From contig NZ_JAOVZW010000024.1 of NCBI RefSeq assembly GCF_026460885.1, forward strand, positions 1-64,000: DNA of 64,000 bases, read 5' to 3'. The position numbers and the translations under genes are program-made. Every line of letters begins with the position of its first letter. Position 1 is the stretch's first letter. Source of the stretch: Chryseobacterium formosum (GTDB lineage Bacteria > Bacteroidota > Bacteroidia > Flavobacteriales > Weeksellaceae). Shown here piece after piece: positions 12,643 to 57,463 of the stretch. Below the pieces are notes generated by a model that was not told the DNA's origin, did no database searches, and worked only from the letters and a program-made list of their open reading frames with translations.

Positions 12643-12660
12643 AACAATACTTAATTATAT

Positions 12661-12689: not shown

Positions 12690-12769
12690 ATGCCGTAATC
12701 ATAAGTATGTTTAGAACGAGTTATTATTTAAATAAAACTGTTAGTTAAATTTAATTAGGTATAATAAGA

Positions 12770-14841: not shown

Positions 14842-14851
14842 CAGTCCGAAA

Positions 14852-14886
14852 AGTAGGTTTACTTTATGTGAGTGCGGTAACCTGCT
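14852..14886 (+). other. Leader hairpin upstream of rplK
   Basis: AGTAGGTTT and TAACCTGCT flank a loop of about 17 nt and can pair (with G-U). The position, just after the transcription start and before rplK, suits an autoregulatory ribosomal protein leader, but no known L1/L10 motif was confirmed. Confidence 0.4.
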
Positions 14887-14938
14887 GAATAATAAATGCT
14901 TCCAAACTCATTAATTATTCAAATTTAAAAAACAAACA

Positions 14939-15385: not shown

Positions 15386-15396
15386 TACTTAGAGAA

Positions 15397-16089
15397 ATGG
15401 CAAAATTGACTAAAAAGCAAAAAGAAGCTGCTAGCAAAGTAGAAAAAGGAAGAATCTATAACCTTGAAGAAGGTTCTGCTCTTGTAAAAGAGGTGAACAC
15501 TGCAAAGTTTGATGCTTCTGTAGATATCGCTGTAAGATTGGGTGTAGATCCAAGAAAAGCAAACCAAATGGTAAGAGGTGTAGTATCTCTTCCTCACGGA
15601 ACTGGTAAAGATGTTAAAGTTTTGGCTTTAGTAACTCCAGATAAAGAAGCAGAAGCTAAAGCGGCTGGTGCTGATTATGTAGGTCTTGACGAATATTTAC
15701 AAAAAATCAAAGAAGGTTGGACAGATGTTGACGTTATCGTTACAATGCCGGCTGTAATGGGTAAATTAGGACCATTGGGTAGAGTATTAGGACCAAGAGG
15801 TTTAATGCCTAACCCGAAATCAGGTACTGTTACTATGGAAATTGGTAAAGCAGTAACTGAAGTAAAAGCTGGTAAAATTGACTTTAAAGTAGACAAATAC
15901 GGTATTATCCACGCTGGTATTGGTAAAGTATCTTTCGATGCTGCTAAAATCAAGGAAAATGCTCAGGAATTGATCTCTACTTTGATCAAAATGAAGCCAA
16001 CTGCAGCTAAAGGTACTTATGTGAAGTCTATCTATTTGTCTTCTACAATGAGTCCTGGTATTGCAATCGATACTAAATCTGTTAACTAA
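15397..16089 (+). CDS. rplA: 50S ribosomal protein L1
   Basis: A 230-residue L1-stalk protein, also a translational repressor of its own operon in many bacteria. Signature segments are [15 protein letters not shown] and [20 protein letters not shown]. Length is normal. It lies between rplK and rplJ with short gaps. Confidence 0.98.
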
Positions 16090-16106
16090 TACTAAATCCT
16101 AAGACA

Positions 16107-16694
16107 ATGACAAAAGACCAAAAAGTTGTAGCGATACAAGAGATCAAAGACTTGCTTCAGGATGCTAAAGTAGTATATGTTGCAGATCTTGAAGGATTGA
16201 ATGCTGGTAAAGCTTCAGACTTCAGAAGACAAGCTTTCAAGCAAAACATCAAAGTAAAAGTTGTGAAAAACACACTTTTGCAAAAAGCAATGGAACAAAT
16301 TGACGGAGTAGATTTCTCTGAAATGTTTGGTACTTTCAAAGGTAACTCTGCTTTAATGATTGCTGAAACTGCTAACGCTCCAGCAAAATTAATCAAAGAC
16401 TTCAGAAAGAAAGAAGAAAAGCCGGCTTTAAAATCAGCTTTCGTACAAGAAACTTTCTATGTTGGTGACAATAACCTTGATGCTCTAGTAAGCATTAAGT
16501 CTAGAGAAGAAATGATCGGTGAAATCATCGGATTACTTCAGTCTCCAATCCAAAGAGTTGTTTCTGCTCTTCAAAACAAATCTGAAACTGTAGAAGCTAG
16601 CGCTGAAGAAGTTGCTGCACCTGCTGTGGAAGAAACTCCAGCTACTGAAACTCCAGAAGCTGCTGCAGAAGGAGAAGCTCCAGCTGCAGAATAA
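16107..16694 (+). CDS. rplJ: 50S ribosomal protein L10 with acidic tail
   Basis: A 195-residue base of the L7/L12 stalk. The N-terminal domain has VYVADLEGLNAGKASDFRRQ and KVVKNTLLQKA. The C-terminal helix that binds L7/L12 dimers covers about 135-155. After that comes an Ala/Glu/Pro-rich extension of about 35 residues (EETPATETPEAAAEGEAP) that E. coli L10 lacks. I do not know its role. Confidence 0.97.
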   Translation: MTKDQKVVAIQEIKDLLQDAKVVYVADLEGLNAGKASDFRRQAFKQNIKVKVVKNTLLQKAMEQIDGVDFSEMFGTFKGNSALMIAETANAPAKLIKDFRKKEEKPALKSAFVQETFYVGDNNLDALVSIKSREEMIGEIIGLLQSPIQRVVSALQNKSETVEASAEEVAAPAVEETPATETPEAAAEGEAPAAE

Positions 16695-16742
16695 TTAGAC
16701 TCTCAAAAAAATCAATCAATAATCAACAAAAACATTACAACA

Positions 16743-17108
16743 ATGTCAGATTTAAAAAATTTAGCTGAAACGCTAGTAAACTTAACAGTAAAAGACGTAA
16801 ATGAATTAGCTACTATCCTTAAGGATGAGTACGGAATTGAGCCAGCTGCTGCTGCTGTAGTAGTTGCTGCAGGTGGTGCTGAAGCTGCTGAAGAAAAGAC
16901 TGAATTCGACGTAATTCTTAAGTCTGCAGGTGCTTCTAAATTAGCTATCGTTAAATTGGTAAAAGATTTAACTGGTGCAGGTCTTAAAGAAGCTAAAGAT
17001 ATCGTAGACGGAGCTCCTTCTGCTATTAAAGAAGGTATCTCTAAAGACGAAGCTGAAGCTCTTAAGAAGCAATTAGAAGAAGCTGGTGCTGAAGTAGAAT
17101 TGAAATAA
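16743..17108 (+). CDS. rplL: 50S ribosomal protein L7/L12
   Basis: A 121-residue stalk protein that recruits translation factors. It has the N-terminal dimerisation helices, an Ala-rich hinge (about 36-52) and the C-terminal domain with [13 protein letters not shown]. It would normally be followed by rpoB; here a terminator and about 46 kb of accessory DNA follow. Confidence 0.98.
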
Positions 17109-41763: not shown

Positions 41764-42723
41764 ATGTCAAGAGTAACAAAAAATTCAATAAAAGTATGGC
41801 CATACTTAGATAATATATCTAACAATATTATAACATATTCTAGTGAACATTTAAATAAGTCGAATGTCGTTAGTATTGATTTATCGTCATTAAAAACAAT
41901 TACAACATCAGGTGCAGCAATTTTATTAACTAAGCTTATAAAGACTTTAGAGGATTATACTTGTAGAATAATTAGGCCTGAAAATAAAGAGATAGATAAT
42001 TTTCTTAGTAAGATAGACTTCTATTATTTTATTCAAGAAAATTTAAAAATTGAAACTGAAAATCTTTTCGAGAGTTTTGTCATTAAAAAAGAAACCGAAG
42101 AACAAGTATTTGAAAAAAATGGAAGCAATTATATTATGTTTCCTATTTTCAAACTTAATTTTGATGTAGAAAAAGAGAGAATTGGATATGAAAATTTTAC
42201 TGATTGGTTTGCAGATGTTTTATTAAAAAAAGAATTTGATATAATAAAAGATAAACGGGATAAATTAGGTACAGTATTATTTGAAATTGCAAAAAATTCT
42301 CAAGACCATACTGATAATATTGCTTTCTTTGGATTAGATTTATTATTAGATAATGATACCCAAGGCAGGCTTTCGTTTTCGTTCTGTGATTTAGGAGTAG
42401 GAATTTCACGAAATGTTAGAGATTCTTTAGATGGTAAAGATAACGGGTTAAGAAAAGATGCTGCCAAGCATTTTTCATTTTCTGATTCCTATCAATTTGC
42501 ATTCGGAATTGGAAATACAACATCAAAAAACAAGAAAAATAAAGGAATCGGAATGTCTATGATAAAAGATGCTTGTCACTATTTGAAAATGGAATTATCA
42601 ATTTGGGACGCTAGAAGTATGTTACTTATTCCTGAAAAAATCACACATACAGAATTAAGAAAAAATGTATATGACACAGGAAATAACGTTGGATTTTATT
42701 ATTATGGAATATTAAATTTTTGA
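41764..42723 (+). CDS. STAS/HATPase switch protein
   Basis: A 319-residue cytosolic protein. The N-terminal part (about 30-90) looks like a STAS domain (VVSIDLSSLKTITTSGAAIL). The C-terminal part is a GHKL-type ATPase with N box EIAKNSQDH (174-182), DLGVGIS (209-215) and NKGIGMSMI (260-268). There is no phospho-acceptor His domain, so it resembles anti-sigma-factor kinases rather than a sensor kinase. It heads six tightly packed genes; 3 nt separate it from the STAS-like partner. Confidence 0.75.
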   Translation: MSRVTKNSIKVWPYLDNISNNIITYSSEHLNKSNVVSIDLSSLKTITTSGAAILLTKLIKTLEDYTCRIIRPENKEIDNFLSKIDFYYFIQENLKIETENLFESFVIKKETEEQVFEKNGSNYIMFPIFKLNFDVEKERIGYENFTDWFADVLLKKEFDIIKDKRDKLGTVLFEIAKNSQDHTDNIAFFGLDLLLDNDTQGRLSFSFCDLGVGISRNVRDSLDGKDNGLRKDAAKHFSFSDSYQFAFGIGNTTSKNKKNKGIGMSMIKDACHYLKMELSIWDARSMLLIPEKITHTELRKNVYDTGNNVGFYYYGILNF

Positions 42724-42726
42724 TAT

Positions 42727-43134
42727 ATGAAAAAAGTAGATTTTAGTAACCAAAAACTTCATAGAGAATCTTATTATTCCCCTATGCTGAAGGAAATACA
42801 ACTTAATAATGAAGATTTTGAAATAGATATAGATATAAGAAATTGTTTTATAGATTATCCTGCGACTCCCCATTTAATAGATTATTTTTTAAAACATTTA
42901 AAAAGTCTTGATATATCTGAAAAGAAACTTATAATCAATTCAACTTCTTTAGATAATCTCGAGCATTATGTATTGTATTATCTTGTTTTTGAAAGTGATT
43001 TTTTTGATATAAGAGAAAAAATAAGTTCTGAAGAAGAATTGAATTTGTGGATAGAAAGGATTAATCAAAGATTACAAGAAAATAATATTAAACTAATAAT
43101 TAAAACTGAAAATAAAGAATTTAATTATGGATAG
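42727..43134 (+). CDS. STAS-like partner protein
   Basis: A 135-residue cytosolic protein with an alpha/beta layout: EIDIDIRNCFIDYPATPHLI, KKLIINSTSLDNLEHYVLYY and a final helix plus strand. This resembles STAS-like (DUF4325-type) proteins, which often lie beside HATPases and could be its phosphorylation or binding target. No obvious conserved Ser/Thr can be named with certainty. It overlaps the next gene by 8 nt. Confidence 0.55.
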   Translation: MKKVDFSNQKLHRESYYSPMLKEIQLNNEDFEIDIDIRNCFIDYPATPHLIDYFLKHLKSLDISEKKLIINSTSLDNLEHYVLYYLVFESDFFDIREKISSEEELNLWIERINQRLQENNIKLIIKTENKEFNYG

Positions 43135-45253
43135 AAAGATTATATCAGATATTTTATATGAAATTATTGAACGACTAGTTAGATTCCGTACACACTTCAA
43201 TGATATAGAAAATCAATTCTATAATGGAAACGAGGACAAAAAAGAATTGATCGAAAATTACAGAAATGTTCTTCAGGAGTTATATGAGTTTTCAATAAAA
43301 ACTTATAACGAGAAATCAACTGATATAAATGTGTTTAAAGGTATTCTTCAACTAATTAATGATTTACATATTACATATTTGTCTAAATTGCCTAGACCTA
43401 TAGAACCAGTAGAGCTAACTCGTTTTGAAAGAGTCATTTCTAAGCAAATTATGAAATTAAATAATGATGAAGATAATCCTCTTGTGAATGAAGAAAGAGA
43501 AGTCTCAATATTAATGAATGAAACAATAGGTGAAACTTTAGATTTTGATTATTTGTCCGAATTTAAAAAAAAGATTAAAGAAAGTATTAATCTAGATATT
43601 AAATCTGTAGAGCAGAATAGTAAAAAGTTTCATGTAACTATTCCTAGAATTGATGCTTCAAATACTTTTAGATGGCCATCTCTCATACACGAAATGGCTC
43701 ATCATTCTTTCTTGAAAGCTAAATTTGAAGACGAAAATATTGAATTAGATTTCATTAAAAAGACTGGGATTAATAAAGAATTGGCTTTTAATAAATATTT
43801 TGCATCTAATCTTGCCGAAGGGGTATTTGATCAAGAATCTAAACTTTTTTGTTGGCTAAAAGAATGCTGGTGTGATTTGTTTGCATGCATACTGATAGGA
43901 CCTTCACTTTATTTTTCACAATATCTTGTGTTTTTGAATGGCGAAAGTATCTATTCTAGTAATTTAGGTACAACAACAGACAGGTCGACTCATCCTAATC
44001 CTTTGTTAAGACTTTATTTAATTAACTCCATTATATCGCACAGATTTCCAACAATATCTACAATAATTGATGATTTTTGTAATGATTGTAGTAATGTTAT
44101 AGAGCATTTTATCGATGATTCTGATATTAATAAAGAAATATTTAATAGTTTTAATCTTTATTTTACATCTCATTTTTTCACAAAAGACACACAAAAAGAC
44201 AATGAGAATCTTAGTGCATCATTAAGCAAATTAATGCATAAGTATGTTAATTTGCAGCCTGAAATAATTGAGCAATTATCAGAAAATTTATCTCAGGGAT
44301 TACCAATACCAAGTATAAAAATATTTAATGATAAAAATGAATATGAAGAAATCCCAACATATGTACAAGAAATATTTTTAAGCAGTTGGGTGACAAGATT
44401 AAAATGTATTAAACAAAATATTTTAAATATTGTAGAGAAAGTAGGTGATATTAAACAACAATATGAAGATATTGAAAAAATTGTTTTGCGTCATGATCAA
44501 GCAATTCTAAAATCTATTCAAGTTTCTGAGTGGTTTGATTATTTAATTGATCAGTATGACAGAAAAGAGAATATTGAGATTTATAAAAAAGCTGATACAC
44601 AAAGGGCTGACAGAAATATGTTTGAGGGAGTTCTTGTGGACAAAGAAATCAAAGAATTGATATTGGAAAATGAAATAAAGATTATTCCGTTAATGTATTC
44701 AGGACAAAATGTCAATGGAAAAGAAGTAAATCAGATAGGAACAACATCATTAGATATAAGATTAGGAACAAGTTTTCAGGTTTTTTTTCCAGATCAGTAT
44801 GGACTTGTAGATTTTACGGATAAAGAAAATTTTAATTTTGAGAAAAACTCCCAAAGAATAAATTTAGATTTTATGAAAGGCATTACAATTGCTCCTGGAC
44901 AATTTTTGCTCGCTCATTCGATGGAATATGTAAAGATTCCAGATTATTTATCTGGGAATTTGGAAGGTAGAAGTAGTTTTGCAAGGCTAGGGATAGAAAT
45001 TCATATGACTGCAAGTTATATAGATCCAGGTTTTGAAGGTGTAATCACATTTGAAATTTACAATGCCGGACCAAGTACCGTTAAACTTTATCCAGGAATG
45101 AGAATAGGTCAATTAAGATTTGAAAAAAATAATATCCCTGAAAAATCATATTCAAAGAAACATTCTGTTAAGTATATTGGTTTACTCGAACACAATTTAA
45201 GTAAGCAGAATATGGATCTTGAAGTTGATTTAATTAAAAAATATAAAAAATAA
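43127..45253 (+). CDS. Metalloprotease-like domain fused to a dCTP deaminase domain
   Basis: A 708-residue protein of two parts. The N-terminal part (about 1-490) has SLIHEMAHH (H188, E189, H192), the HExxH zinc-protease motif, then KECWCDLFACILIGP (E246, D250) and THPNPLLRL (289-297), an order seen in M48-like proteases. The C-terminal part (about 498-690) is a dCTP deaminase: GTTSLDIRLG, EGRSSFARLGIEIHMTAS, YIDPGFEGVITFEIYNAGP with catalytic E643, and PGMRIGQLRFE. Stand-alone dCTP deaminases are about 190 residues, and such enzymes are known to deplete dCTP in phage defence. Fusion to a protease-like module is unusual. Cleavage releasing or activating the deaminase is one guess. Confidence 0.75.
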   Translation: MDRKIISDILYEIIERLVRFRTHFNDIENQFYNGNEDKKELIENYRNVLQELYEFSIKTYNEKSTDINVFKGILQLINDLHITYLSKLPRPIEPVELTRFERVISKQIMKLNNDEDNPLVNEEREVSILMNETIGETLDFDYLSEFKKKIKESINLDIKSVEQNSKKFHVTIPRIDASNTFRWPSLIHEMAHHSFLKAKFEDENIELDFIKKTGINKELAFNKYFASNLAEGVFDQESKLFCWLKECWCDLFACILIGPSLYFSQYLVFLNGESIYSSNLGTTTDRSTHPNPLLRLYLINSIISHRFPTISTIIDDFCNDCSNVIEHFIDDSDINKEIFNSFNLYFTSHFFTKDTQKDNENLSASLSKLMHKYVNLQPEIIEQLSENLSQGLPIPSIKIFNDKNEYEEIPTYVQEIFLSSWVTRLKCIKQNILNIVEKVGDIKQQYEDIEKIVLRHDQAILKSIQVSEWFDYLIDQYDRKENIEIYKKADTQRADRNMFEGVLVDKEIKELILENEIKIIPLMYSGQNVNGKEVNQIGTTSLDIRLGTSFQVFFPDQYGLVDFTDKENFNFEKNSQRINLDFMKGITIAPGQFLLAHSMEYVKIPDYLSGNLEGRSSFARLGIEIHMTASYIDPGFEGVITFEIYNAGPSTVKLYPGMRIGQLRFEKNNIPEKSYSKKHSVKYIGLLEHNLSKQNMDLEVDLIKKYKK

Positions 45254-45256
45254 TGT

Positions 45257-46036
45257 ATGCATCAATTTTTATTATTAAAAGCGACTGTGAATAATTCAAT
45301 GGAAAATCAAATAGATTTACTCTTATTTTACAATTTAGCAATTGTTTTTTTTATTGGTTGTATCTGCGGTTCTACAGAAGTCTTAAGTAGATATAAGGAA
45401 ACTAAGTATATATTTAGACAAGGTGTATGGCTTTGGGTTTTATTTTATATTATATTTAATGGATTAGTTTCTGTTCTTGCTTTATATTTTATCAAATATT
45501 TTCGTGGTCAGGAATTTCTGAGTTCTTTTAAATCGATTGAGATAAATAATATTTTCGCAGCTGGATTCGGAGGAATGATGATTTTAAGAAGTTCAATATT
45601 TAGTATTAATAACAATGGAAAAAAAATAGCAATTGGCTTGGAGGCAATTGTAAAAACTTTTTTAGATACGATAGAACGTCAAATTAAGAATATAACTGCT
45701 GTAAAGAGAGTTGATGATCTAGAAGCTATAATGAAAGGTTTGGATTTTCAAAAAATAAAAGATGAATTACCACAACTTTGTATAGATTTTGTAGATAATT
45801 TTAAAGAAGAAGATTCTAAAGTTATAAAAAACCACATAAATACTATTGACAATTTTAATAATATGACTAACTTTGGGAAGTGTTTATCATTAGGAAGAAT
45901 AATTGCTATGTACTGTGACACAGGTGTAATTAAATCATTAGTAGAGAAAAATGCTGAATTTAAATTAAAAGTTAATAATGAAGATATAGATCCAATCACT
46001 GAAATACAAAATATACAAGATAATTTAAGAATTTAA
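45257..46036 (+). CDS. Two-helix membrane protein of the defence-like operon
   Basis: A 259-residue protein with two clear membrane helices (LLFYNLAIVFFIGCICGS, and WLWVLFYIIFNGLVSVLALY). A short loop and a mostly helical cytosolic part of about 150 residues follow. An alternative ATG at 45299 would drop the first 14 residues. No family recognised. Membrane proteins in defence operons are often the killing effector, but nothing here proves that. It starts 3 nt after the fusion gene. Confidence 0.6.
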   Translation: MHQFLLLKATVNNSMENQIDLLLFYNLAIVFFIGCICGSTEVLSRYKETKYIFRQGVWLWVLFYIIFNGLVSVLALYFIKYFRGQEFLSSFKSIEINNIFAAGFGGMMILRSSIFSINNNGKKIAIGLEAIVKTFLDTIERQIKNITAVKRVDDLEAIMKGLDFQKIKDELPQLCIDFVDNFKEEDSKVIKNHINTIDNFNNMTNFGKCLSLGRIIAMYCDTGVIKSLVEKNAEFKLKVNNEDIDPITEIQNIQDNLRI

Positions 46037-46046
46037 AATTTGCAAA

Positions 46047-46415
46047 ATGGAAACAAATATAAAATACAATAACTTTATTGAGGACATTAAAGCAAATAAT
46101 ATATCCTCTAATATTTCATTTTTAAAAACTATCACACAACTTATTAAAGACGACTTGAGTAAGATGCAAAACGATAATGTTATCAAATTAAGAGAAATTA
46201 TCGACATGATAAACAAGTTGGACGATAAGCAAATCATTGATGAATATATCTCTTTTGGTTATTATCTAAAGTCAATATTAACAAAAAGTTTTATTTCAGA
46301 GAATAAAGAAATTCTTAAAAAAATTACGATTCAATATTTAGAAATTGCGAAATGGACTAAAGATACTAGAATCAAAAATTTAGGATTTGATATAGCAAAA
46401 GAATTAACAAGTTAA
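46047..46415 (+). CDS. Small helical protein of the defence-like operon
   Basis: A 122-residue soluble, all-helical protein rich in Ile, Lys and Asn (KTITQLIKDDLSKMQ, IKLREIIDMINKLDDKQIID). It has no known domain. It may be an adaptor or regulatory subunit. Its stop overlaps the methyltransferase ATG by 1 nt, so the two are coupled. Confidence 0.58.
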   Translation: METNIKYNNFIEDIKANNISSNISFLKTITQLIKDDLSKMQNDNVIKLREIIDMINKLDDKQIIDEYISFGYYLKSILTKSFISENKEILKKITIQYLEIAKWTKDTRIKNLGFDIAKELTS

Positions 46416-47665
46416 TGTTAGATTATAATTTAAAGGAAAGAGTAGATTCTAATATTATTTCAAATGCTTCTGGTTATAACAATGAACATCGTTTTAGATG
46501 GTATCCTTACAAGGAAGGATTTTCTAAGTCTCTTGTGCAAGAAGCAATTAATAGTATTAAATTAGACGAGAATGATTATATTCTAGACCCCTTTAATGGA
46601 AATGGTACAGTTACTCTAACCTCATCTCTGAATAATATTTCCTCACTTGGTATTGAATCTAATCCTTTTTCTGCATTTCTAGCTAAAACGAAAAGTGTAA
46701 ATCTTTCAACTAAGGAATTGGACAAAGATTTTAATAAACTTTTAAAAAGTATTAAAAATGGCAAAAAATCAAAGTTATTAGAATATTCTACATTTTCAGA
46801 GTATAGCGGTAAGAAAAAATGGTTATTTAATAGTGAGGTTTTAAATGCTTTTGAAGGTGGTTGGCAATATACTGATAGAATTTATGATATAAATAAAAAA
46901 AAACTTTTACAATTATCACTAATTTCTTCGGCAATCGATAATTGTAATGCAGTTAAGGATGGTAAGTGTTTAAAATATAAACAGGAAAGGATAAATAAAA
47001 ATTTTTCTGCTGAAAGCTTTCTCAATTCCTTTGAGGGAAAAATTAATTTAATTAGAGAGGATCTACAAGAGTCTATTATTAGTACAAAACCCTCAATAAT
47101 AAATGGAGATTCGAGAATAATTTTAGATTCTATACCCCATTATAAATTATGTATCACCTCTCCTCCATACTTAAATTCATTTGATTACACAGATATTTAC
47201 CGACCTGAATTATTTTTAGGAAAATTTATAAAATCTAGTGAAGAATTAAAGAATTTAAGATATAATACAATTCGATCTCATAAACTTATTTACAGTAATC
47301 AAATACCTGATAATATTTTGCTGGGACAATTATTTGAGGCTGTTATTAATAGTCTACCAGTAATAAAAAAAGGTTGGAATAAAACAATTCCACACATGAT
47401 AAAGGGATATTTTGAGGACATGAGCATCATATTATCAAAATTGTTTGCTACTGCAAAAAAAGGAGGTGAATTATGGATTGTTATTGCTAATTCAGTTTAT
47501 TTGAATACTGAAATACCTGTCGATCTAATTTTAGCTGAAATCGGATCATTACATGGTTGGAAATTAAAGAAAATAGAAGTATTACGATATATATATAGAA
47601 GAAAAACAAAATATTCAGGCGACCACACAAAACTAAGAGAAAGTCTAATTGTTTTTGAAAAATAA
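46415..47665 (+). CDS. DNA methyltransferase (N4-cytosine/N6-adenine type)
   Basis: A 416-residue SAM-dependent methyltransferase. Motif I is DPFNGNGT (58-65), motif II acidic E81 is in GIESNP, and motif IV is CITSPPYLNSFDY (246-258). TSPPY is commonest in N4-cytosine enzymes but does not exclude N6-adenine. About 180 residues sit between motifs I and IV and may recognise the target. No restriction endonuclease is seen beside it. In the operon it could mark self DNA for a system whose attack is done by other genes. Confidence 0.8.
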   Translation: MLDYNLKERVDSNIISNASGYNNEHRFRWYPYKEGFSKSLVQEAINSIKLDENDYILDPFNGNGTVTLTSSLNNISSLGIESNPFSAFLAKTKSVNLSTKELDKDFNKLLKSIKNGKKSKLLEYSTFSEYSGKKKWLFNSEVLNAFEGGWQYTDRIYDINKKKLLQLSLISSAIDNCNAVKDGKCLKYKQERINKNFSAESFLNSFEGKINLIREDLQESIISTKPSIINGDSRIILDSIPHYKLCITSPPYLNSFDYTDIYRPELFLGKFIKSSEELKNLRYNTIRSHKLIYSNQIPDNILLGQLFEAVINSLPVIKKGWNKTIPHMIKGYFEDMSIILSKLFATAKKGGELWIVIANSVYLNTEIPVDLILAEIGSLHGWKLKKIEVLRYIYRRKTKYSGDHTKLRESLIVFEK

Positions 47666-47726: not shown

Positions 47727-47753
47727 AACCTAACCCATAAGTTAGGTTTTTTT
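47727..47753 (+). terminator. Terminator of the defence-like operon
   Basis: AAACCTAAC and GTTAGGTTT pair, followed by seven T. It closes the six-gene operon just before the convergent XRE gene. Confidence 0.88.
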
Positions 47754-48012
47754 ATTCGTCAATTTTATATTTCTTAATATCAAAATCAAAGTCAAAGAGT
47801 TCTTTAGGAGTTATACCAAAAGCTGATGACATTTTCAACATAGTTTCTATAGTAGGATTGCCCTTACCATTTTCAAATTTATTGTAATTGCTTGAATCGA
47901 AATTTGAATTCTTCGCAACCTCATCCATCGAATTATATTTTGTAGCTCGAATCCTCTTCAAATTTTCTGAAAACTCAAGCATAAATAATTTTAAGACTTC
48001 TTTGCTATCCAT
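47752..48012 (-). CDS. XRE-family transcriptional regulator
   Basis: An 86-residue protein from the ATG at 48012; the upstream TTG adds only a few residues. A helix-turn-helix covers about 12-66, with ENLKRIRATKYNSMDEVAKN and SSNYNKFENGKGNPTIETM, then an acidic tail. It is convergent with the methyltransferase gene. A perfect 20-bp palindrome 46 nt before its start is a likely binding site. Such regulators often keep defence operons silent, but it could instead control the RNA gene on the other side. Confidence 0.85.
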   Translation of the reverse strand: MDSKEVLKLFMLEFSENLKRIRATKYNSMDEVAKNSNFDSSNYNKFENGKGNPTIETMLKMSSAFGITPKELFDFDFDIKKYKIDE

Positions 48013-48057
48013 AAATAATGTATTTATGAGCAATTTTGGATTTTTGATTTAAAAATT

Positions 48058-48077
48058 CATGGTAATATATTACCATG
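48058..48077. promoter_or_regulatory. Perfect 20-bp palindrome, candidate XRE operator
   Basis: CATGGTAATATATTACCATG is fully self-complementary. It lies between the XRE gene and the divergent promoter at 48096-48128, 18 bp before that -33 box. There are no T-runs, so it is not a terminator. Confidence 0.6.
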
Positions 48078-48095
48078 TAGTAAAAAATTTCTATA

Positions 48096-48128
48096 TTTGT
48101 AAAATAAGTTACAGAATATGTAATTTTG
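48096..48128 (+). promoter_or_regulatory. Promoter of the structured RNA region
   Basis: TTTG (48096-48099), a 21-nt spacer and TAATTTTG (48121-48128). Transcription would start near 48135. Confidence 0.65.
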
Positions 48129-48134
48129 CGATAC

Positions 48135-48430
48135 TTCAAAGAATAATAGAAGCTATTGCTTAGAATCTCGCTCCGAAAACTGGCACTTTTCAATTAACCA
48201 CGAGATGATAAGTATAAAGCTCACGACCTAGGCGTGGGCTCTCTTATCTGTGGTTTAAGGTATGCCAGTACCTCAGAGCTGATAATGTAGAGTTCCACGC
48301 CGTCTTTTTTCCAATGCTGTTAGCCCGCCACTACATTATATTCTAAGCCTCGCTTTAAACATAGTATCATGACACTATACAATAGGAAGGTACAACCTAT
48401 TGCGGCTTTTAAAGCTTACACGGGACACAG
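48135..48430 (+). ncRNA. Candidate structured RNA, about 300 nt
   Basis: At least six helices can be drawn. ACTGGCA (48179) pairs with TGCCAGT (48263). Inside it AACCAC (48196) pairs with GTGGTT (48250), and within that AGCTCACG (48218) pairs with CGTGGGCT (48233). ATAATGTAG (48282) pairs with CTACATTAT (48331). GCTTTAAA (48352) pairs with TTTAAAGC (48408), enclosing AATAGG/CCTATT (48381/48396). The GC content is above that of the island, there is no convincing frame, and a good promoter stands in front. No known family fits. It may be a free RNA or the leader of the SusC gene. Confidence 0.5.
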
Positions 48431-48660
48431 ATTTCATTCATATTAAATTCTTTCCGGTGCCTTGCGGTCACTGCTTACAGAACCTCACCAGTCCTTTTTC
48501 ATACCAAAGGGCATCAGGAAAGTTTTTATCCATCGATGAATACATCACATTAATTACAAAAAATATAAAAAACAAAAAAGCCCCTTCCCAAACAGTTTGA
48601 CGACACAGGGAAAGAGCAGATCAGTAATTAATTTAACGATTAAAAACCTTTTACAAATCT

Positions 48661-51654
48661 ATGAAAAATTCCTATTACAAGATAGGAGGTATTTTCTTTG
48701 GCCTTATGCTGACCGCTGTCAGCACCAATACAAAAGCCCAAACACGCACCATTTCAGGTACCGTTACCGCATCCAACAAACCACTTTCGGGAGTAACCAT
48801 CTCCCAAGAGGGAAGTGATCAGGTAACGACCACCAGCGAAAACGGAACCTATACATTACAGGTTAAAGCAGAAAATCCCATCCTATTGTTCAGACATCCT
48901 GATTATGCTGAAGAACGAATCTCAGCCACTGATCAGACCGTCGTCAATATCAGCTTAGAACAAAAAGTAAAGGGAATCGAAGAAGTTATTCTCAACGCCG
49001 GCTACTACAAGGTCAAATACAAAGAACGAACCGGTAGCATCGCCAAAGTTTCAGCAAAAGACATAGAAAACCAACCCGTCACCAATGTCTTGTCAGCAGC
49101 ACAGGGTAGAATGGCCGGGGTCAGCATTACCCAGAATTCAGGTACACCCGGAGGTGGTTTTGATGTTCAGATAAGAGGAAGAAACTCACTCCGTAACCGG
49201 ACCAACTCCGAGTTTGACGGGAATGTACCGTTGTATATTATTGATGGCGTTCCGGTGGGCGGTAGCATCAATTCAAGATATGGCGGGGCAGTATTACCCA
49301 ACGGTGATGTCAACCCGTTAAATGCCATTAACCCTAATGATATTGAAAGTTTCGAGATTTTAAAGGATGCCGATGCGACGGCAATTTACGGTTCCAGAGG
49401 CGCAAATGGAGTCGTCTTGGTCACTACAAAAAAAGGAAAAAAGGGAAAGGTAAAAGTTTCGCTCAATTCTTCCTACGGACTGAGCCATGCAGTATCAAAC
49501 CTCGAAATGATGAATACCGAGGAGTACATTGCTATGAGAAAGCAGGCATTCGCCAACAGCAATATATCGGTATATCCGGCTACGGCCTATGACATCAACG
49601 GAACATGGGATGCCAACCGTTACACCGATTGGCGAAAAGAGCTCTTGGGCAATCAGGCAACCTTATCAGCCAATCAGCTTTCCCTTAGCGGGGGAAGTGA
49701 AACCACTTCTTTTCTATTAAGTTTGGGGCACAATCAGCAGACCACGGTGTTTGGTCAGGATTTCAGGTACAGGGCAACCACGGTGTCGGGAAATGTCAGT
49801 CACCGCTCCGCCGACAGAAAGTTCAGCTTCAACATGTCGAATCAGTTTTCTGCAATGGATAATAACCTCATCAGCTCAGATATTACTCGGGCTGCTCATA
49901 TTCTGTCACCCAATGCGCCGGCCTTGTATTCTGCAGACGGTAGCCTGAACTGGGAAAACAACACTTTCACCAATCCTGTGGCTGCCTATGAGAATTCATA
50001 TACCAATGATCAGCTTCAGTTTCTCAACAACATGAGTGCAGAATATGAAGCCTTTACAAATTTCAGGGTCAGGCTGAACGGAGGGTTTACCTACCAGACT
50101 TTTGAAGAATGGTCACTGCGTCCCAATACGGCATTTAATCCTGCATTAGGAAGTACTCCCGCAATGTCTCAGTCCTCAAAAAGCAATCAGGATCGTTTCT
50201 CACTCATTATAGAGCCGCAGATCAGCTGGCTCTACAAAAAAGAGACGCATCAGTTTGATGTATTGGCAGGAGCAACCTATCAAAACGATAAGGTGGGGCA
50301 GGGCGCCATTCAGGGGATCGGTTTTGAAAGCAATGCATTGATAAAAAACATAGGCGCGGCACAGACCAAAACGATTTTAGATCACATCAATACCGAATAC
50401 CGATATGCGGCATTCTTCGGCAGGATCAATTATCAGTTCGATAAAAAATACATTCTCAACATCACAGGCAGAAGAGACGGGAGCAGCCGTTTCGGGCCCA
50501 ACAATAAATACGCAGACTTTGGAGCGATAGGGGCAGCCTGGTTATTCTCCGGGGAAAACTGGCTGAAAAACAGCGCGTGGCTGAGCTTCGGGAAACTGCG
50601 GGGAAGTTACGGGACTTCGGGAAGCGACAACATTGGAGATTATCAGTATCTCGATACCTTTACCACCTCTGCATTGATCTACAATGGAGTCACCGCATTG
50701 TTGCCCTCAAGATTGTACAACCCTGATTTCAGTTGGGAAAAGACGGTGAAATTGGAAGCTGCCTTAGAACTGGGTTTCTTCGATAACCGATTAAATGTGA
50801 GTGGTGCTTATTATAGAAACCGTTCAGGCAATCAGCTGGTGGGGTATCAGCTCCCTTCGGTAACAGGATTTACATCGGTACTCTCCAATCTTGATGCAGT
50901 CATTCAAAACACAGGGTTGGAAGTTGAGGCCAACGGAAAAATAATACAGTCAAAAGCAATATTATGGAATACATCGTTCAACATCAGTTTCCCGAAAAAT
51001 AAGCTGATTTCCTTTCCCGGTTTGGAAGGATCTACCTACGCCAATACGTATGTGGTCGGGCAGCCCGTTGGTATCATCAAGCTGTATGAACTCAATGGGG
51101 TAAATCCATCGACTGGGCTGTATCAGTTCACAGATTTTAACGCTGACGGGAAAATTGCGGCACCCGATGACAGACAGGTCATTAGAAATGTAAGTCAGAA
51201 ATTCTTTGGGGGTTGGAGTAATGAAGTCACATACAAAAACTGGAACCTGTCTTTCCTCATTCAGTTTGTGAAGCAGCAAGGAAGAAATTATAATGCTTCT
51301 ATACCGTCTCCCGGAATTATGAACAATCTTCCGGTTCAGGCATTGGATGTCTGGTCACCGGAAAATCCCGACGGATTGTACATGCCGTATCGGTCTTCTG
51401 CTTCTTCTGCAAATACGCTGTTTCAGACAAGTGATGCTTCCGTTTCTGATGCGTCATTTATCCGCCTTAAAAATGTACAGGTCAATTACAGAATACCGGT
51501 AAAAGGTAACGTCTTCCGTGAGGCAAAACTATATTTTCAGGGGCAGAATCTTGTGACGTGGACAAACTATTTCGGAATCGATCCCGAAAATCCCACCACA
51601 ACTTTCCTCCCTCCCCTCAGAACATATTCCCTGGGACTACAGCTTACCCTCTAA
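48661..51654 (+). CDS. SusC/RagA-family TonB-dependent receptor
   Basis: A 997-residue outer-membrane receptor. A signal peptide (1-26, ending NTKAQ) is followed by a carboxypeptidase-regulatory-like domain (about 28-105) and the plug (IRGRNSLRNRTNSEFDGN, PLYIIDGVPVGG, GSRGANGVVLVTTKKGKKGK). The 22-strand barrel fills the rest to YSLGLQLTL. With SusD it forms a nutrient importer powered by TonB. The neighbouring S9 peptidase suggests peptides rather than glycans as cargo. The region is less AT-rich than the preceding island. Confidence 0.93.
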   Translation: MKNSYYKIGGIFFGLMLTAVSTNTKAQTRTISGTVTASNKPLSGVTISQEGSDQVTTTSENGTYTLQVKAENPILLFRHPDYAEERISATDQTVVNISLEQKVKGIEEVILNAGYYKVKYKERTGSIAKVSAKDIENQPVTNVLSAAQGRMAGVSITQNSGTPGGGFDVQIRGRNSLRNRTNSEFDGNVPLYIIDGVPVGGSINSRYGGAVLPNGDVNPLNAINPNDIESFEILKDADATAIYGSRGANGVVLVTTKKGKKGKVKVSLNSSYGLSHAVSNLEMMNTEEYIAMRKQAFANSNISVYPATAYDINGTWDANRYTDWRKELLGNQATLSANQLSLSGGSETTSFLLSLGHNQQTTVFGQDFRYRATTVSGNVSHRSADRKFSFNMSNQFSAMDNNLISSDITRAAHILSPNAPALYSADGSLNWENNTFTNPVAAYENSYTNDQLQFLNNMSAEYEAFTNFRVRLNGGFTYQTFEEWSLRPNTAFNPALGSTPAMSQSSKSNQDRFSLIIEPQISWLYKKETHQFDVLAGATYQNDKVGQGAIQGIGFESNALIKNIGAAQTKTILDHINTEYRYAAFFGRINYQFDKKYILNITGRRDGSSRFGPNNKYADFGAIGAAWLFSGENWLKNSAWLSFGKLRGSYGTSGSDNIGDYQYLDTFTTSALIYNGVTALLPSRLYNPDFSWEKTVKLEAALELGFFDNRLNVSGAYYRNRSGNQLVGYQLPSVTGFTSVLSNLDAVIQNTGLEVEANGKIIQSKAILWNTSFNISFPKNKLISFPGLEGSTYANTYVVGQPVGIIKLYELNGVNPSTGLYQFTDFNADGKIAAPDDRQVIRNVSQKFFGGWSNEVTYKNWNLSFLIQFVKQQGRNYNASIPSPGIMNNLPVQALDVWSPENPDGLYMPYRSSASSANTLFQTSDASVSDASFIRLKNVQVNYRIPVKGNVFREAKLYFQGQNLVTWTNYFGIDPENPTTTFLPPLRTYSLGLQLTL

Positions 51655-51725: not shown

Positions 51726-53104
51726 ATGAAAACACACCTTAATAAAATAATAATCACATCCATGCTCTCTACCCTCATCACCTGTTTCTCATGTGAGAAA
51801 ATGCTGGAAACAGACGTGCCCGAAAATCAGATGCAGTCACAAACGGTATTTGAAAATGTACAGACCGCCAATTCCGTTCTTTCGGGTCTGTACGCAGGAT
51901 TATTTGATGCATCACCGGTTTCCGGTGATCAGAGCGGATATTGTCTCAGTATGTATACGGATGATACAGACTTTTATGCTTTGAGCAATACAAGTGGTCT
52001 TTTGGAAATTGCCGGCAATACACTCATCGATTCAAACAATACTACGGCAACATTCTGGGCATCATCATATCAGAAAATATATCTCTGCAATACAATTCTG
52101 GAAGGAATTGAAGATTCTAAAGGAATACCGGAAGCCGATAAAAATAGAATCAAAGGCGAAGCTTTAACCATCCGCTCTCTCCTGTTATTTTATCTTCAGC
52201 AGCTCTATGGCGATATTCCGTATCCCGTAACCACCAATTATATGATCAATCAGTCAATCTCGAAGACACCGTCACAGGAGGTTTTTTTCAGATTAGAAAC
52301 CGATCTGCAGGAAGCATCCGGTTTACTGCCCGATACGTATCGCCATGCGGAAAGAATTTTTATCAACAAAAAAGCAGCGCAGCTTCTCTTAGGCAAAGTC
52401 TATATGCGCAGCAAGGCAAATCGTCACAGGCGGAGATCGTATTGAAAGCAATTGTTCAAAGTCCGCTGTATCAGTTTCAGAATGATATCACTAAAGTATT
52501 TACTAAAACAGGAACTCACATCCTGTGGCAGCTGAAACCTAAAAACAATGCAGATGCTGTAAAAGAAGCTTCATTGTATTATTTTGCGAATGCTGCTCCG
52601 TTGTATGTCGCCCTTTCTCCGTCTTTGGTAAGCTCCTTGGCAGCAGTAGATCTCAGAAAACAGAATTGGACTGCTCCCGTAACGGTCGGGGCAAACACCT
52701 GGTATCGGGCAGAAAAATACAAAGCCAGATCTAATAATTCAACTGAATATTCCATCATATTCAGACTGGAAGAAGCTTATCTTCTGTTGGCAGAATCTTT
52801 AGCAAGGCAAAACAGGATCGCAGATGCACTGCCATACATCAATCCAATCAGGCAGAGAGCAGCACAGCCTTTACTCAGTGCCTCTATATCTCAGCAAGTT
52901 TTGTTGAATGAAATTGTTTCAGAAAGCAGGAAAGAATTTTTTACCGAGATGGGGCATCGTTTTTTAACATTAAAGCGATTTGGCTTGCTCAGCAATTTAA
53001 TGCAGACAAAGCCAAATTGGAAAGACCATCACAGGTTATGGCCTGTGCCTCAAAAAGACATCCTCCTGAATTCCAATTTGAATCCTCAAAATCCAGGGTA
53101 CTGA
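51726..53104 (+). pseudogene. SusD/RagB-family lipoprotein gene with one frameshift
   Basis: The first frame (51726-52445) has a lipoprotein start (Cys23 in CFSCEKML) and SusD features (NSVLSGLYAGLFD, RIKGEALTIRSLLLFYLQQL, YGDIPYPV). It drifts out at LGKVYMRSKANR. In the next frame the expected sequence continues as AQQGKSSQAEIVLKAIVQSP, then SIIFRLEEAYLLLAESLARQ and KEFFTEMGHRFLTLKRFG, to 53104. One missing G at about 52407 (ATGGCG to ATGCG) explains it. The repaired protein is about 460 residues. If real, the importer lacks its surface subunit. Confidence 0.88.
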
Positions 53105-55605
53105 TGAAATGCTTTTGGGGACTTTTGTTTTTCTGTGCATGGCATCTTATCCATGCACAGAAAAGCAATGCTGAAATTGAAAAATGCATGTCCGGTTTTG
53201 CAAACATAAGGGTTATTGCCGTATCAGGCGATCAGCGGTTTTTAGCAGTGCATAAAACATACGAAAAAAATAAAGATACAGTACTGGTGTTTGATCGCAC
53301 CTACCCGGAGAATCCGGTAGATACAATCGTAAAGAAACCTTTTGTTTCCTTTCTTGGCAGTCATATAATAATAGCTTCAGGCAGTGATGCTGCACAGCTG
53401 ATTAATCTGAAATCAAAACAGAGAAAATCATTTGAAAACGTTAGAAGTACCGCTGTACTGTCAAAAAAAAGACAGTATCTTATTGAAGATGGGAATAAAA
53501 TGGTAAGGGTATACAGTGAGGAGGGTAAGCTGCTGTCTACAGTGATGGGCACTTCACAATGGGTAACCGGTACCGATGGCAGATGCTATATACTAAGAAC
53601 GGAAAGAGAAAAAGAGGAGGTCATTAGGTGGGACGGGCAAAAATTGAAGACGCTCTACCAATCTGATGATAAAATAAAGAAAATAAATCTTCTTCCGTCA
53701 GAAAGATTTGTAATGATGACTGAAAAAAAACATCAGAAACCTGAAGGGCTCACCATTACATTATTGAGAACAGAAGATTCAGAAATTTTTAAAAACGCTT
53801 CGGTCATTTCTGATAAAAAAGACCGTTTTTTGATCACCGAAATAGGAAATACAGAAACATTCCTGATTGATTTTCAGCAAAATAATAAACCTGTACAGGA
53901 AGATATGGTGGAGGTTTGGTATGCAGGAGACAAAACCTTGAGGGATAGAGGCAAGGATACCAAAATACACGATTTTTGGCTGTGGAATTTGAATAAAGGG
54001 GTTGCGGATAAGATTTCTGATAAACGGTTTTCAGAATATATCGCAATGCTGGATGATCGGTTTCTTTGGGCGTACCATACGGATGAAGCATTCTCCTACA
54101 CGGGAGACAGAGAGTTTGATTTTTTTCTCTACGATACACAAAACCAGACGGCAGAAAAAGTTTTTGAACGCACAAGGGGTCTCATCGCATCGGTTGATGG
54201 CAGGTTTACGCTGGCCTACACCAAAATCGGAAAAAAATGGATATTGTATGACCTTAAGTATAAGAAAAAAATGGTGATGCCATTTGGGAGTAAGTATTCT
54301 AATCCCATATTTACTGCGGAAAATACCGTCCTCTTTGAATCGGAAACGGATATTGCAAAATACAGTCTGAAAACGGGACAATGGGAATTGTTAAATTGGG
54401 GCAAAGGGAATACAGTGGTCTTTCATAATTTTATTCCCAAAACCGTTCATGAATTGACAGGGGTTACGGCCGATATAAGACAATGGGAAAGCTCAGAACC
54501 GCTATTTTTAAAAATCAGCAGGGATCAGAATAACGACAGTGGGTATTTTGTATACGAAAACAATCGGATAAAAGAAATAATACCTTTTACGGCTAATAAA
54601 GTAAAATATTTCACATATTCCAACCATAGCAGAAACTTCTTTTCAATGGAAGAAAATTTTAAGATGGCGGGAGATTTATTTGAAAGAAGGATTGCTGAAT
54701 CTGAGAAGAAAAATATATACAGAAGCAATCCCGGGGATAAGACCGTCCTGGAAATGAAGCAGGAAATTATTCGTTTTAAAAATAGTTTTGGACGAGAGCT
54801 GAAAGGTATTTTATACTATCCGGCAAGATTTGATGCATCCAAAAAATATCCTGTGGTGGTTCATATTTACGGCGTTTTGCATACGCATGCAGATAAATTC
54901 CTTCAGCTGGAATGGGGAGATAATGGGTTCAGTAAAAGACTGCTTTTAGAGAATGGGTACTTTGTATTCCAGCCAGACACCGTCGTCGATGAAAGGGGGC
55001 CGGGTGTGTCGGCATTGGATGACGTCCATTCAGGGTTGGATGCCCTGATGGAGAATATCAATATTGATAGCACCAGGATGGGGTTGATTGGTCATTCTTT
55101 TGGCGGTTATAAAGCTAATTATATTGCGGCTCATTCTAAGAGATTCAAAGCGTTTGTTTCAGGAGCAGCAGTAGGGGAACTGGTAAATTTCTATTTTTCA
55201 TTCAGTGATCTTTTTAAAATTGCAGATTATGCAAGATTTGAAACAGGGCAGTTTGCCTTTAATGTTCCCTATGCAGACAACAAAGAATTGTATTTTAAAA
55301 ATAATCCGATAAATTACGTTGAGAATGTAACCACTCCCTTGCTCATATGGTCGGGTAAAAAAGATGCCAATACCAAGACGGCAATGACGATGAATTGGTA
55401 CATGGCGCTGGTCAGAAACAAAAAGAAAGCGGTTGCGCTGCTGTATCAAAATCAGAAGCATAATTTTACAAAAAACTCACCGGAGATTATTGATCTTAAT
55501 AATAAAGTGATGGAGTGGTGGGATTATTTCCTAAAGGAAAAAAAAGATATTCCGTGGATCGATAGAGAGATGATCGGGAATGAGTTGAATCTGCCGTTGA
55601 AATGA
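53104..55605 (+). CDS. S9-family (prolyl oligopeptidase-type) peptidase
   Basis: An 833-residue secreted serine peptidase. The ATG at 53104 overlaps the susD stop and gives a signal peptide (WGLLFFCAWHLIHAQ); the longer frame starts inside susD. The N-terminal 500 residues are propeller-like. The C-terminal alpha/beta-hydrolase domain has GLIGHSFGGYKANYI with Ser665, WSGKKDANT with Asp754 and QKHNF with His786. It probably trims peptides in the periplasm for import. The susC-susD-peptidase order points to a peptide-utilisation locus. Confidence 0.88.
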   Translation: MKCFWGLLFFCAWHLIHAQKSNAEIEKCMSGFANIRVIAVSGDQRFLAVHKTYEKNKDTVLVFDRTYPENPVDTIVKKPFVSFLGSHIIIASGSDAAQLINLKSKQRKSFENVRSTAVLSKKRQYLIEDGNKMVRVYSEEGKLLSTVMGTSQWVTGTDGRCYILRTEREKEEVIRWDGQKLKTLYQSDDKIKKINLLPSERFVMMTEKKHQKPEGLTITLLRTEDSEIFKNASVISDKKDRFLITEIGNTETFLIDFQQNNKPVQEDMVEVWYAGDKTLRDRGKDTKIHDFWLWNLNKGVADKISDKRFSEYIAMLDDRFLWAYHTDEAFSYTGDREFDFFLYDTQNQTAEKVFERTRGLIASVDGRFTLAYTKIGKKWILYDLKYKKKMVMPFGSKYSNPIFTAENTVLFESETDIAKYSLKTGQWELLNWGKGNTVVFHNFIPKTVHELTGVTADIRQWESSEPLFLKISRDQNNDSGYFVYENNRIKEIIPFTANKVKYFTYSNHSRNFFSMEENFKMAGDLFERRIAESEKKNIYRSNPGDKTVLEMKQEIIRFKNSFGRELKGILYYPARFDASKKYPVVVHIYGVLHTHADKFLQLEWGDNGFSKRLLLENGYFVFQPDTVVDERGPGVSALDDVHSGLDALMENINIDSTRMGLIGHSFGGYKANYIAAHSKRFKAFVSGAAVGELVNFYFSFSDLFKIADYARFETGQFAFNVPYADNKELYFKNNPINYVENVTTPLLIWSGKKDANTKTAMTMNWYMALVRNKKKAVALLYQNQKHNFTKNSPEIIDLNNKVMEWWDYFLKEKKDIPWIDREMIGNELNLPLK

Positions 55606-55930: not shown

Positions 55931-57463
55931 TTAATAATTGTGCCTACTCTCAGGAACGGTTTTCGGCTTCCCCGTATTAAAATGCTTGGTCAGACTGTGA
56001 GTTAATTGATATCTCACCAGACGATTTCCTATAACAGCATAGAGATGTTTTTCAGTAACTATAAAATCACTCATCCCTTTGTTATGGTCTTTTTCGATGT
56101 ATAAACTGCCCGCATATTCATTCGAAGTGGTGTTGTACAGGTCTACTACAGTGTTGTTTTTCCACCTCTTCACAGATTCGTTTCTTCCTCTTAGCTCGGA
56201 AGGGTTGAAGAGAAGCCCTCCGTAAGAAATACCTCGGCCGTTTACTTTCATCGGTATGTTTTTTATTTTATGGCGGCCGTCTGATAAAGATTCGGTAATG
56301 AGTTGCGCTGTTTTTATGGTGTCAATGGTCGAAGCTTTTCGCTGTAACTGCAGCAGCGTATCCATGATCAGAAATTGGTTTCGGTAAGTATAGATATAGG
56401 AAAGTGTTTTTCTGCTTTGGTCAAAAGATAAATATCCGTCCGAGTCAAAAACTCCGTCTTTCTGCTTTTGAAGAAGGTTGCTAAACAGCTCAACTTTATT
56501 TTTTCCGTCAGCTTGTATTTTGATTTTTCCTAATAGCAATTCTTTTGTTTTCGAAGATTGTGTTCTGATGCCGAAAGTGTAGTCATTCAATACTTCCATT
56601 TGGGTAAAGAAAGCATCATTATAGCTAATGGTGGTCACAGTGGGATTCCCTATTGTACCCCTCATTAGGATAGGTACGGTTCCGTCATAAACATAGTAAT
56701 TCCCTTTGTGGATCTTTATTTCAAGTTTTCTGTAGACATGTTTCGTCACGTCAAGATCTATTTTCATTTGATCGGATTTTGCAAGCGCTGTATCATAGCT
56801 GATTAGATTCTGAGGGAAGTTTCGGTCGCCTAAATAGATTCTGCCGTCTGAAAATCCGGCAAAATAAAAACCAGTGTGCGCAAGATCTGCAGTATGGGTT
56901 TTTAATAAAGGATGCATCAGAAAGCGTCTGGTAAAATTGTTTTCTTTTTTGATGATGTACTCAGAATCCAGAAACAGGAAAACAATGAGTGCACAGCTTA
57001 AAAGATTAGAACACAGAAGTGCAAAAGTGATGGTCGCATAAGATCTCATGCTGTATTTTTCGGAAATAAAAACCGCAGCAATTCCGAACAGAACACAAAA
57101 GATATTGAAAATTAAATGTTCCGTCCATCCCAGTTTTTCCAATAGGCCGCCGCACGAGCAGGGTACAAAATCACTGTAGTTTAAGATAAGATAGATGTAT
57201 AGAGTAAAAGCGCTCATAAGAGCGGTAGAGGAATATAATCCTGCAATTTGGGTCCTTGGGAAAATAAGAAGCAAAACAATAAGCAGCTCAGTAAAAATAA
57301 CAACATACGAAATGGAATCAGCATAAGCGCTCAGAAGTGGAGACTGTCCGATTTGAATCTGGAAGTTTTCAAAGTCAGAGGCTTTGCTTACTGCGGCATA
57401 GCAAAACAGCAGAATAAAAAAATAAACGGCTGACGTCTTGAGATAAAGGGTTGTATTTTTCAT
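55931..57463 (-). CDS. MauE/DoxX-like redox membrane protein with C-terminal repeat domain
   Basis: A 510-residue protein. The N-terminal four-helix membrane part (about 8-165) is of the MauE/DoxX type and has PCSCGGLLEKLGWTEHLIFN with C102 and C104, a typical redox pair of this group. The remaining 340 residues look periplasmic and propeller-like (IYLGDRNFPQNLISYD, GVFDSDGYLSFDQSRKTL). The family moves electrons or forms disulphides. It overlaps the preceding small gene by 4 nt (ATGA) and precedes the DUF6520 gene by 10 nt. Confidence 0.75.
   Translation of the reverse strand: MKNTTLYLKTSAVYFFILLFCYAAVSKASDFENFQIQIGQSPLLSAYADSISYVVIFTELLIVLLLIFPRTQIAGLYSSTALMSAFTLYIYLILNYSDFVPCSCGGLLEKLGWTEHLIFNIFCVLFGIAAVFISEKYSMRSYATITFALLCSNLLSCALIVFLFLDSEYIIKKENNFTRRFLMHPLLKTHTADLAHTGFYFAGFSDGRIYLGDRNFPQNLISYDTALAKSDQMKIDLDVTKHVYRKLEIKIHKGNYYVYDGTVPILMRGTIGNPTVTTISYNDAFFTQMEVLNDYTFGIRTQSSKTKELLLGKIKIQADGKNKVELFSNLLQKQKDGVFDSDGYLSFDQSRKTLSYIYTYRNQFLIMDTLLQLQRKASTIDTIKTAQLITESLSDGRHKIKNIPMKVNGRGISYGGLLFNPSELRGRNESVKRWKNNTVVDLYNTTSNEYAGSLYIEKDHNKGMSDFIVTEKHLYAVIGNRLVRYQLTHSLTKHFNTGKPKTVPESRHNY

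Follow-up and report, generated by a model that had tools for sequence, protein, structure and literature searches.

A pseudoknotted RNA with two mutually exclusive helices, common to many Bacteroidota, as a candidate attenuator leader for horizontally acquired genes

On contig NZ_JAOVZW010000024.1 of Chryseobacterium formosum, a divergent regulator gene (47752–48033, minus strand) and a SusC gene (48661–51654, plus strand) flank a stretch of DNA in which the first-pass annotation of the window, that is, of the whole 64,000 nucleotides analysed, had proposed a candidate structured RNA at 48135–48430, with nested helices, a promoter in front, no convincing coding frame and no fit to tmRNA, RNase P RNA, a cobalamin riboswitch or group II intron domain 5. 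The locus raises the question of whether such an RNA is real and, if so, what it does between a regulator and a SusC gene. The helices, the promoter and the lack of a convincing coding frame are all present, and comparison with homologues confirms the RNA as such, but its limits have to be moved: the core occupies about 48106–48310, opening with a 5' hairpin and closing with a T-run, and the promoter TATATTTG stands in front of it at 48092–48099; a start at 48135 loses the 5' hairpin at 48106–48126. What the earlier reading lacked is the large size of the family, the preceding regulator gene with its palindrome, and the attenuator layout of the 3' half before SusC.

The single sequence folds only mildly better than its shuffles (z –2.14 for 48105–48545 and –1.74 for 48125–48425) and by itself is therefore little proof; the proof comes from comparison. 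The alignment used contains 140 copies (effective number 88), thinned from 190 of 199 copies, which have the strict P6 pattern (see below) and enough flank, together with the window. On these copies RNAalifold predicts 35 pairs, of which 14 have double changes, and in a model-free, de novo covariation analysis the top ten column pairs all fall inside the helices P2, P3, Pc and PK. The modelled structure of 34 pairs, including a pseudoknot, has 97.6% of its cells paired vs 88.1% in shuffled alignments, 437 double-changed cells vs 116.6 in shuffles, and 19 pairs changed on both sides; none of 500 shuffles reaches the paired, pair or cell figures, and paired cells fall to 37–45% when the structure is slid along the alignment as a control. 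The covariation among homologues on which the original claim had been made to depend is thus present, and it is near certain that the RNA structure is real. A coding gene was considered as well and rejected, the gaps in the alignment, judged by eye, not coming in threes and the paired positions covarying.

The 5' hairpin P1 (48106–48112 with 48120–48126), at the expected transcript start, is supported by base-pair exchanges: 48108–48124 is GC in 69 and AT in 25 of 136 copies, and 48109–48123 is TA in 82 and CG in 21 of 137. It is followed, on the same plus strand, by a stack composed of P2 (48171–48175 with 48274–48278; 96.2% paired, up to 62 double-changed sequences per pair), P3 (48179–48185 with 48263–48269; 99.9% paired, up to 26 double-changed sequences per pair), Pc (48197–48201 with 48250–48254; 89.5% paired, double changes in all five pairs) and P5 (48207–48212 with 48243–48248; 97.1 and 99.1% paired). 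The pseudoknot helix PK (48166–48169 with 48202–48205) crosses P2/P3, and its pair 48169–48202 is CG in 96, UA in 43 and UG in 1 of the 140 copies. At the tip stands the hairpin P6 (48219–48239, GCTCACG-ACCTAGG-CGTGGGC), whose strict core is found in 76 of the 81 copies obtained by similarity; in the 140-copy alignment it is identical except for a U-G/U-A pair, an invariance that arises because the copies were selected by their P6 sequence. On the 3' side of the T-run a second domain (48356–48430, plus strand), missing by eye from the more distant copies, contains a hairpin (48380–48386 with 48396–48402) that is found in 72 of the 81 copies, its three variable pairs being all standard in 66. 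An additional hairpin-rich stretch before SusC (48450–48610) is kept in several copies, and near 48574–48610 a stem followed by a T-run can be read on the minus strand.

The RNA is a member of a multi-copy family, without a match in Rfam, that is common to many Bacteroidota. The same genome contains a second copy at 77% identity and a third, divergent one (L272, at G000:C3:172286–172431), which, judged by eye, precedes genes for secreted and RHS-like proteins; copies L330 and L331 have a similar arrangement. In a similarity search of related genomes, 53 of 98 matched at E 0.001, with one to six matches each; the set taken from this search comprises 80 match rows, nearly all above 188 bits and one of them from another genus, and leaves out at least one match (G058:C27). 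Named genomes contain a 23-nt core, GCTCACGACCTAGGCGTGRGCTC, in at least 119 stretches, and its carriers among the matches listed (80 titles) are all Bacteroidota, including the genera Chryseobacterium, Epilithonimonas, Kaistella, Elizabethkingia, Empedobacter, Cloacibacterium, Flavivirga, Lutibacter, Myroides, Mesonia, Niabella, Terrimonas and Sunxiuqinia. Among Bacteroidota genomes, a first covariance model (E 1e-5) found divergent copies in 27 of 247, and a second one (E 1e-4) found matches in 41 of 296 genomes and 24 of 139 genera. The 34 divergent copies discussed below are a subset of these covariance-model matches, and, since several are related to each other, they do not represent 34 independent events.

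The view that the RNA belongs to no known class held when the search that had been proposed along with it was run: over the core, Rfam 15 returned neither a known riboswitch nor any other family, whether at the gathering score or with the E limit relaxed to 5, and the RNA of ten other copies (L272, L278, L283, L317, L325, L330, L334, L125, L143 and L111) likewise matched no Rfam family. An exact match to a 21-nt core pattern was absent from viral contigs, and no similar stretch was found in 72,556 plasmid and 50,697 phage records; at the sensitivity of these searches, which cover the non-divergent form of the RNA, a phage or plasmid origin was rejected. No description of the RNA was found in the open-access literature, as judged by title and opening of the abstract. 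Flavobacterial 5' elements without an Rfam match are reported in PMC9723704 and may or may not include the present RNA.

The 3' half of the core has the layout of an attenuator. The 3' arm of P6 is complementary to a strand located 57 nt further on, with which it can form an alternative, terminator-like helix, P7 (48231–48237 with 48295–48301), followed by a T-run at 48305–48310. In the 140 copies, 99.3% of the P7 cells are paired, chiefly via G-C/G-U exchange; only one of the seven pairs has double changes (18 sequences vs 5.9 in shuffles), and shuffles too reach one pair, so that P7 in the main family rests on the G-C/G-U exchanges and on the divergent copies. In several of the latter, the letters of P6 are quite different and the pairing is kept (for example, GCGTCC...GGACGC in L278). 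When the 16 distinct 3' arms of the 34 divergent copies, in which the chosen hairpin often takes in part of P5, were paired with their own 3' ends, the mean energy was –22.59 kcal/mol vs –14.82 (sd 1.01) with swapped ones, and none of 10,000 permutations was as low. The 3' arm therefore fits its own downstream strand far better than a swapped one, as expected if P6 and P7 compete for one strand, and three strands changing in concert are the hallmark of two pairings that exclude each other, as they do in an attenuator. P6 and P7 are mutually exclusive, conserved helices on a shared strand, with energies in the window of –9.0 kcal/mol for P6 alone and –20.8 kcal/mol for the P7 duplex, the latter without the cost of its loop. 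A T-run of at least four follows P7 in 138 of the 140 copies and is only four to five long in 92 of them. P7 has the stem and U-run of a terminator, but its loop measures 57 nt in the window and is interrupted by helices, an uncommon feature among intrinsic terminators. With P6 and P7 in competition, the polymerase would be expected to terminate at P7 and, when P7 is not formed, to read through into the gene that follows.

If the RNA is a leader, a promoter in front of it and a gene behind it should lie on one strand, and this is the arrangement found. The box at 48092–48099 (plus strand) is of the flavobacterial sigma-A type TAnnTTTG, the consensus given in passages of PMC9723704, and would place the transcript start near 48104. 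All 76 copies with the strict P6 core have the same consensus 95–150 nt ahead of P6; in front of the divergent copies, its strict form is found only in 18 of 34, with a background of 3.9% per 80 nt. Between the RNA and the next gene, five boxes were seen vs 15.3 expected from the whole loci (20,671 nt in 72 intervals), and in the window 48312–48660 contains no TAnnTTTG. The next ORF of at least 100 aa shares the strand of the RNA in 76 of the 81 copies, lies on the opposite strand in four, and is absent in one. Among the divergent copies, the next ORF is codirectional with the RNA in 13 of 14 of a first set (the exception being L284) and in 18 of 20 of a second (the exceptions being L321 and L331, the latter a doubtful frame of 75 aa). 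This ORF often begins 170–220 nt after the start of the model; in L323 and L325 it begins 827 and 1,177 nt away, and in the window SusC starts 350 nt past the T-run.

The same observations bear on a different reading, in which the RNA would be a free-standing, trans-acting molecule of about 205 nt ending at the T-run, its neighbouring genes being kept through shared mobility. In agreement with it, the RNA has its own promoter box and strongly conserved stretches, such as TTTGCGATACTTC near the 5' end, and in distant genera the similarity stops, by eye, near the T-run. A trans-acting RNA does not account for the next gene being on the same strand in nearly all copies, with genes that are mostly unrelated, nor for the scarcity of promoter boxes ahead of that gene or for the competition between P6 and P7, and we regard it as unlikely.

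What, then, lies behind the RNA? In the window, it is followed on the plus strand by a SusC/RagA-type TonB-linked outer-membrane protein (Plug and CarbopepD_reg_2 domains), a putative SusD-like protein, assigned by clustering, in two overlapping frames (51726–52445 and 52442–53104), and an S9 peptidase (53017–55605). In most other copies, the SusD-like protein is a single frame of about 460 aa. In 47 of the 81 copies (C0-type, L033–L110), the gene behind the RNA encodes a protein of about 176 aa, C0, to which similar-looking proteins are found in Niabella. C0 has no family of weight in Pfam and NCBIfam, its best match among PDB sequences is at E 0.22, and its structure model, all-helical with a mean pLDDT of 79.1, gave no match at E 0.001 in a fold search. 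Genes downstream of the divergent copies are mostly unrelated to each other. The SusC modules, C0, the secreted and RHS-like proteins and the others, many of them named by eye, share no pathway or transporter theme, and a metabolite riboswitch is therefore unlikely; no single ligand suggests itself for genes so diverse.

Such variety, at the 5' end of foreign-looking genes and behind a pseudoknotted RNA with no shared metabolic theme downstream, would also be expected of a processive antitermination element of the EAR, put or RfaH/LoaP type, a folded RNA that equips the polymerase for long acquired operons. That model does not predict a conserved P7 strand and a T-run straight after the fold, nor was an antiterminator gene noticed near the RNA, and it seems to us a quite improbable one.

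On the other side of the promoter stands the regulator, a small XRE/Cro-C1 helix-turn-helix protein of 93 aa (Pfam HTH_3 at 3.6e-10, HTH_26 and HTH_19), and between its gene and the promoter a perfect 20-bp palindrome, CATGGTAATATATTACCATG (48058–48077), is a candidate for its operator, as read from the DNA. In front of the RNA, a small divergent ORF is found in all 81 similarity-found copies (79 by a stricter ORF caller) and, among the matches listed (at least 119, nine of them too short), in all 110 named copies with enough DNA; a Pfam search of these 110 ORFs at E ≤0.01 found HTH_26 in 80 and HTH_3 in 71, HTH_26 being missing from the other 30. Clustering at 70% identity divides the regulators of the 81 copies into 31 groups, of which 15 have a single member, and most of the 12 XRE groups shown have, by eye, their own palindrome-like stretch before the promoter. 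With 31 groups before one conserved RNA in 81 copies, the regulator and its operator behave like an exchangeable module, and the promoter before the RNA is probably controlled by a repressor, predicted to be the XRE protein acting via the palindrome. Several regulator groups stand before both kinds of downstream gene, and the idea that the XRE protein regulates one particular cargo was rejected, the same group being found with different cargo at groEL. Beside the divergent copies an XRE gene was seen in none of 14 and, by eye, in 4 of 20 of the second set. Three of these copies (L273, L282 and L327) have, just upstream and divergent, at the XRE position of other copies, a gene for an IS1595-like transposase, with a zinc-ribbon match below the cut-off.

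An array of regulator groups, most with a palindrome of their own, before one constant RNA that borders on mobile and defence-like cargo, would also suit an addiction pair, in which the XRE protein silences a harmful RNA and loss of the module is punished. The regulator is mostly missing from the divergent copies, and the avoidance of shared regulators within a genome is not significant, which makes this reading very unlikely: copies in the same genome share a regulator group in one of 69 pairs vs 2.9 expected (P 0.19). Heteroimmunity within genomes was likewise set aside, the figures showing a trend only.

Beyond the regulator, the cargo is variable and often defence-like. In the window it spans 41764–47665 on the plus strand and includes, besides small ORFs without a Pfam match, a weak HATPase match (41764–42723), a protein of 708 aa with a C-terminal dCTP deaminase domain (43127–45253) and a DNA methylase (46415–47665). 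An N-terminal HEMAHH motif in the 708-aa protein resembles, by eye, that of a zinc protease. A Pfam search of 140 upstream genes (two per locus, thinned) returned AAA/OLD-type ATPases, Mrr and Eco57I nucleases, reverse transcriptases and SIR2 domains, in two to six genes each. On the same genes PADLOC returned 623 families, largely overlapping related models on the same few ATPases and none in more than 6 of the 140, with Gabija-, PARIS- and Septu-type ATPases among the commonest, in five to six genes each. The 82 control genes beyond C0 on the other side, which come from C0-type loci only and do not form a matched set with the 140 genes of both locus types, gave one PADLOC family in one gene, an unlikely match, and mostly ordinary Pfam families.

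Some copies probably lie in conjugative elements, others in a variable slot beside groEL. To the right of the RNA, the 21 SusC-type stretches have SusC and SusD-like genes in all 21, MauE in 20, a TPR-type regulator in 20 (by eye), an S9 peptidase in 18, an RteC-like protein in 18 (23.3 bits on fragments, under the Pfam cut-off of 25.3) and a DUF6520 peptide in 16; further to the right, part of the 21 have an excisionase-like HTH protein (10), a YWFCY coupling protein (9) or a relaxase (7). Such a gene set resembles that of a Bacteroidota conjugative element, with mobilisation genes in part of the 21; in the window, the right-hand module is present up to the RteC-like gene, with no mobilisation gene in view. 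The left border of the cargo is mixed: a DUF4099 gene is found in 12 and topB in 7 of the 21, and groEL in ten other loci, which are of the C0 type and in which between one and five variable genes separate groEL from the regulator, some of these genes looking defence-like by eye. The C0-type copies appear to be chromosomal. In two species, the MauE-like gene of the SusC module has an Rfam DUF805b RNA (RF02914) close by, encoded on the minus strand (55941–55976 in the window and L111:15922–15957). At 10521–17105, left of the variable region of the window, are tuf, tRNA-Trp, nusG and rplK-rplA-rplJ-rplL, the proteins being named by eye.

A position at the border of variable cargo, both in the probable conjugative elements and at groEL, might also mark a recombination or mobility site that acts as folded single-stranded DNA, like attC, and labels cassettes; the transposase beside three divergent copies, a weak family match, would fit as well. 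Such a site is the most improbable of the readings weighed here, as G-U pairs are common and kept (48221–48237 is U-G in 116 and 48234–48298 G-U in 81 of the 140 copies), the promoter box stands before all 76 copies with the strict P6 core and no constant recombinase was noticed.

The explanation to which we give somewhat better than even credence is that the RNA is a cis-acting attenuator leader, under XRE control, for horizontally acquired genes. The divergent Cro/C1-type protein would bind the palindrome beside the promoter and control its firing, and the polymerase would then make a leader of about 205 nt, which has the structure described above: the 5' hairpin, the pseudoknotted P2-P3-Pc-P5 stack and P6 at its tip. 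The conserved pairings would allow the 3' arm of P6 to swap to the downstream strand, giving P7 and the T-run. As long as P6 is intact, the polymerase would continue into whatever gene follows, namely SusC-SusD-peptidase in the window and C0 or others elsewhere; once P7 is formed, it would stop. The choice between P6 and P7 would lie with the factor that binds the pseudoknotted part or makes it more stable, a switching by the RNA that we infer from the strand sharing.

A broader proposal would see in the phylum-wide RNA switch and the interchangeable regulator-operator modules together an "immunity-type" control region, located at the edge of anti-phage and conjugative cargo, which reads a cellular or infection signal and opens surface and mobility genes; we consider it rather unlikely. 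The company that the RNA keeps with anti-phage cargo may be functional or may reflect only shared mobility. In either case the RNA often marks one edge of such cargo in Chryseobacterium genomes, and new defence genes can therefore be sought beside it. To our knowledge, the regulatory RNAs of Bacteroidota are poorly charted, and a large, well-supported family is here added to them, together with covariance models that find its copies. If the switch is real, its signal is directly testable.

Among the known systems, attenuator and riboswitch leaders are structured 5' leaders in which terminator and antiterminator pairings share one strand and a U-run follows the second. The present RNA resembles them in its location between promoter and gene, in its strand-sharing pairings and in the U-run after the second of these; it differs in its very long P7 loop, in a pseudoknotted upstream fold that lies outside Rfam, and in being tied to XRE-type regulators and mobile or defence-like cargo rather than to a common gene function. 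EAR, put and the LoaP- and RfaH-type leaders are antitermination RNAs that head operons, as the present leader RNA does, whereas the latter has a conserved terminator-like strand after the fold and no Rfam match. RteR of CTnDOT is a short trans-acting RNA adjoining rteC in a Bacteroides conjugative element; the present RNA likewise lies, in part of its copies, in a probable Bacteroidota conjugative element that also encodes an RteC-like protein, but it has a promoter, a divergent regulator and an attenuator layout, and lies about 12 kb from the RteC-like gene. Finally, in ICEBs1 (ImmR) and in lambda-type immunity regions, a small Cro/C1 protein is encoded divergently from a promoter and its groups differ between related elements. 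Both features recur at the present loci, with the difference that heteroimmunity is a trend only and that the transcript is predicted to begin with a structured RNA.
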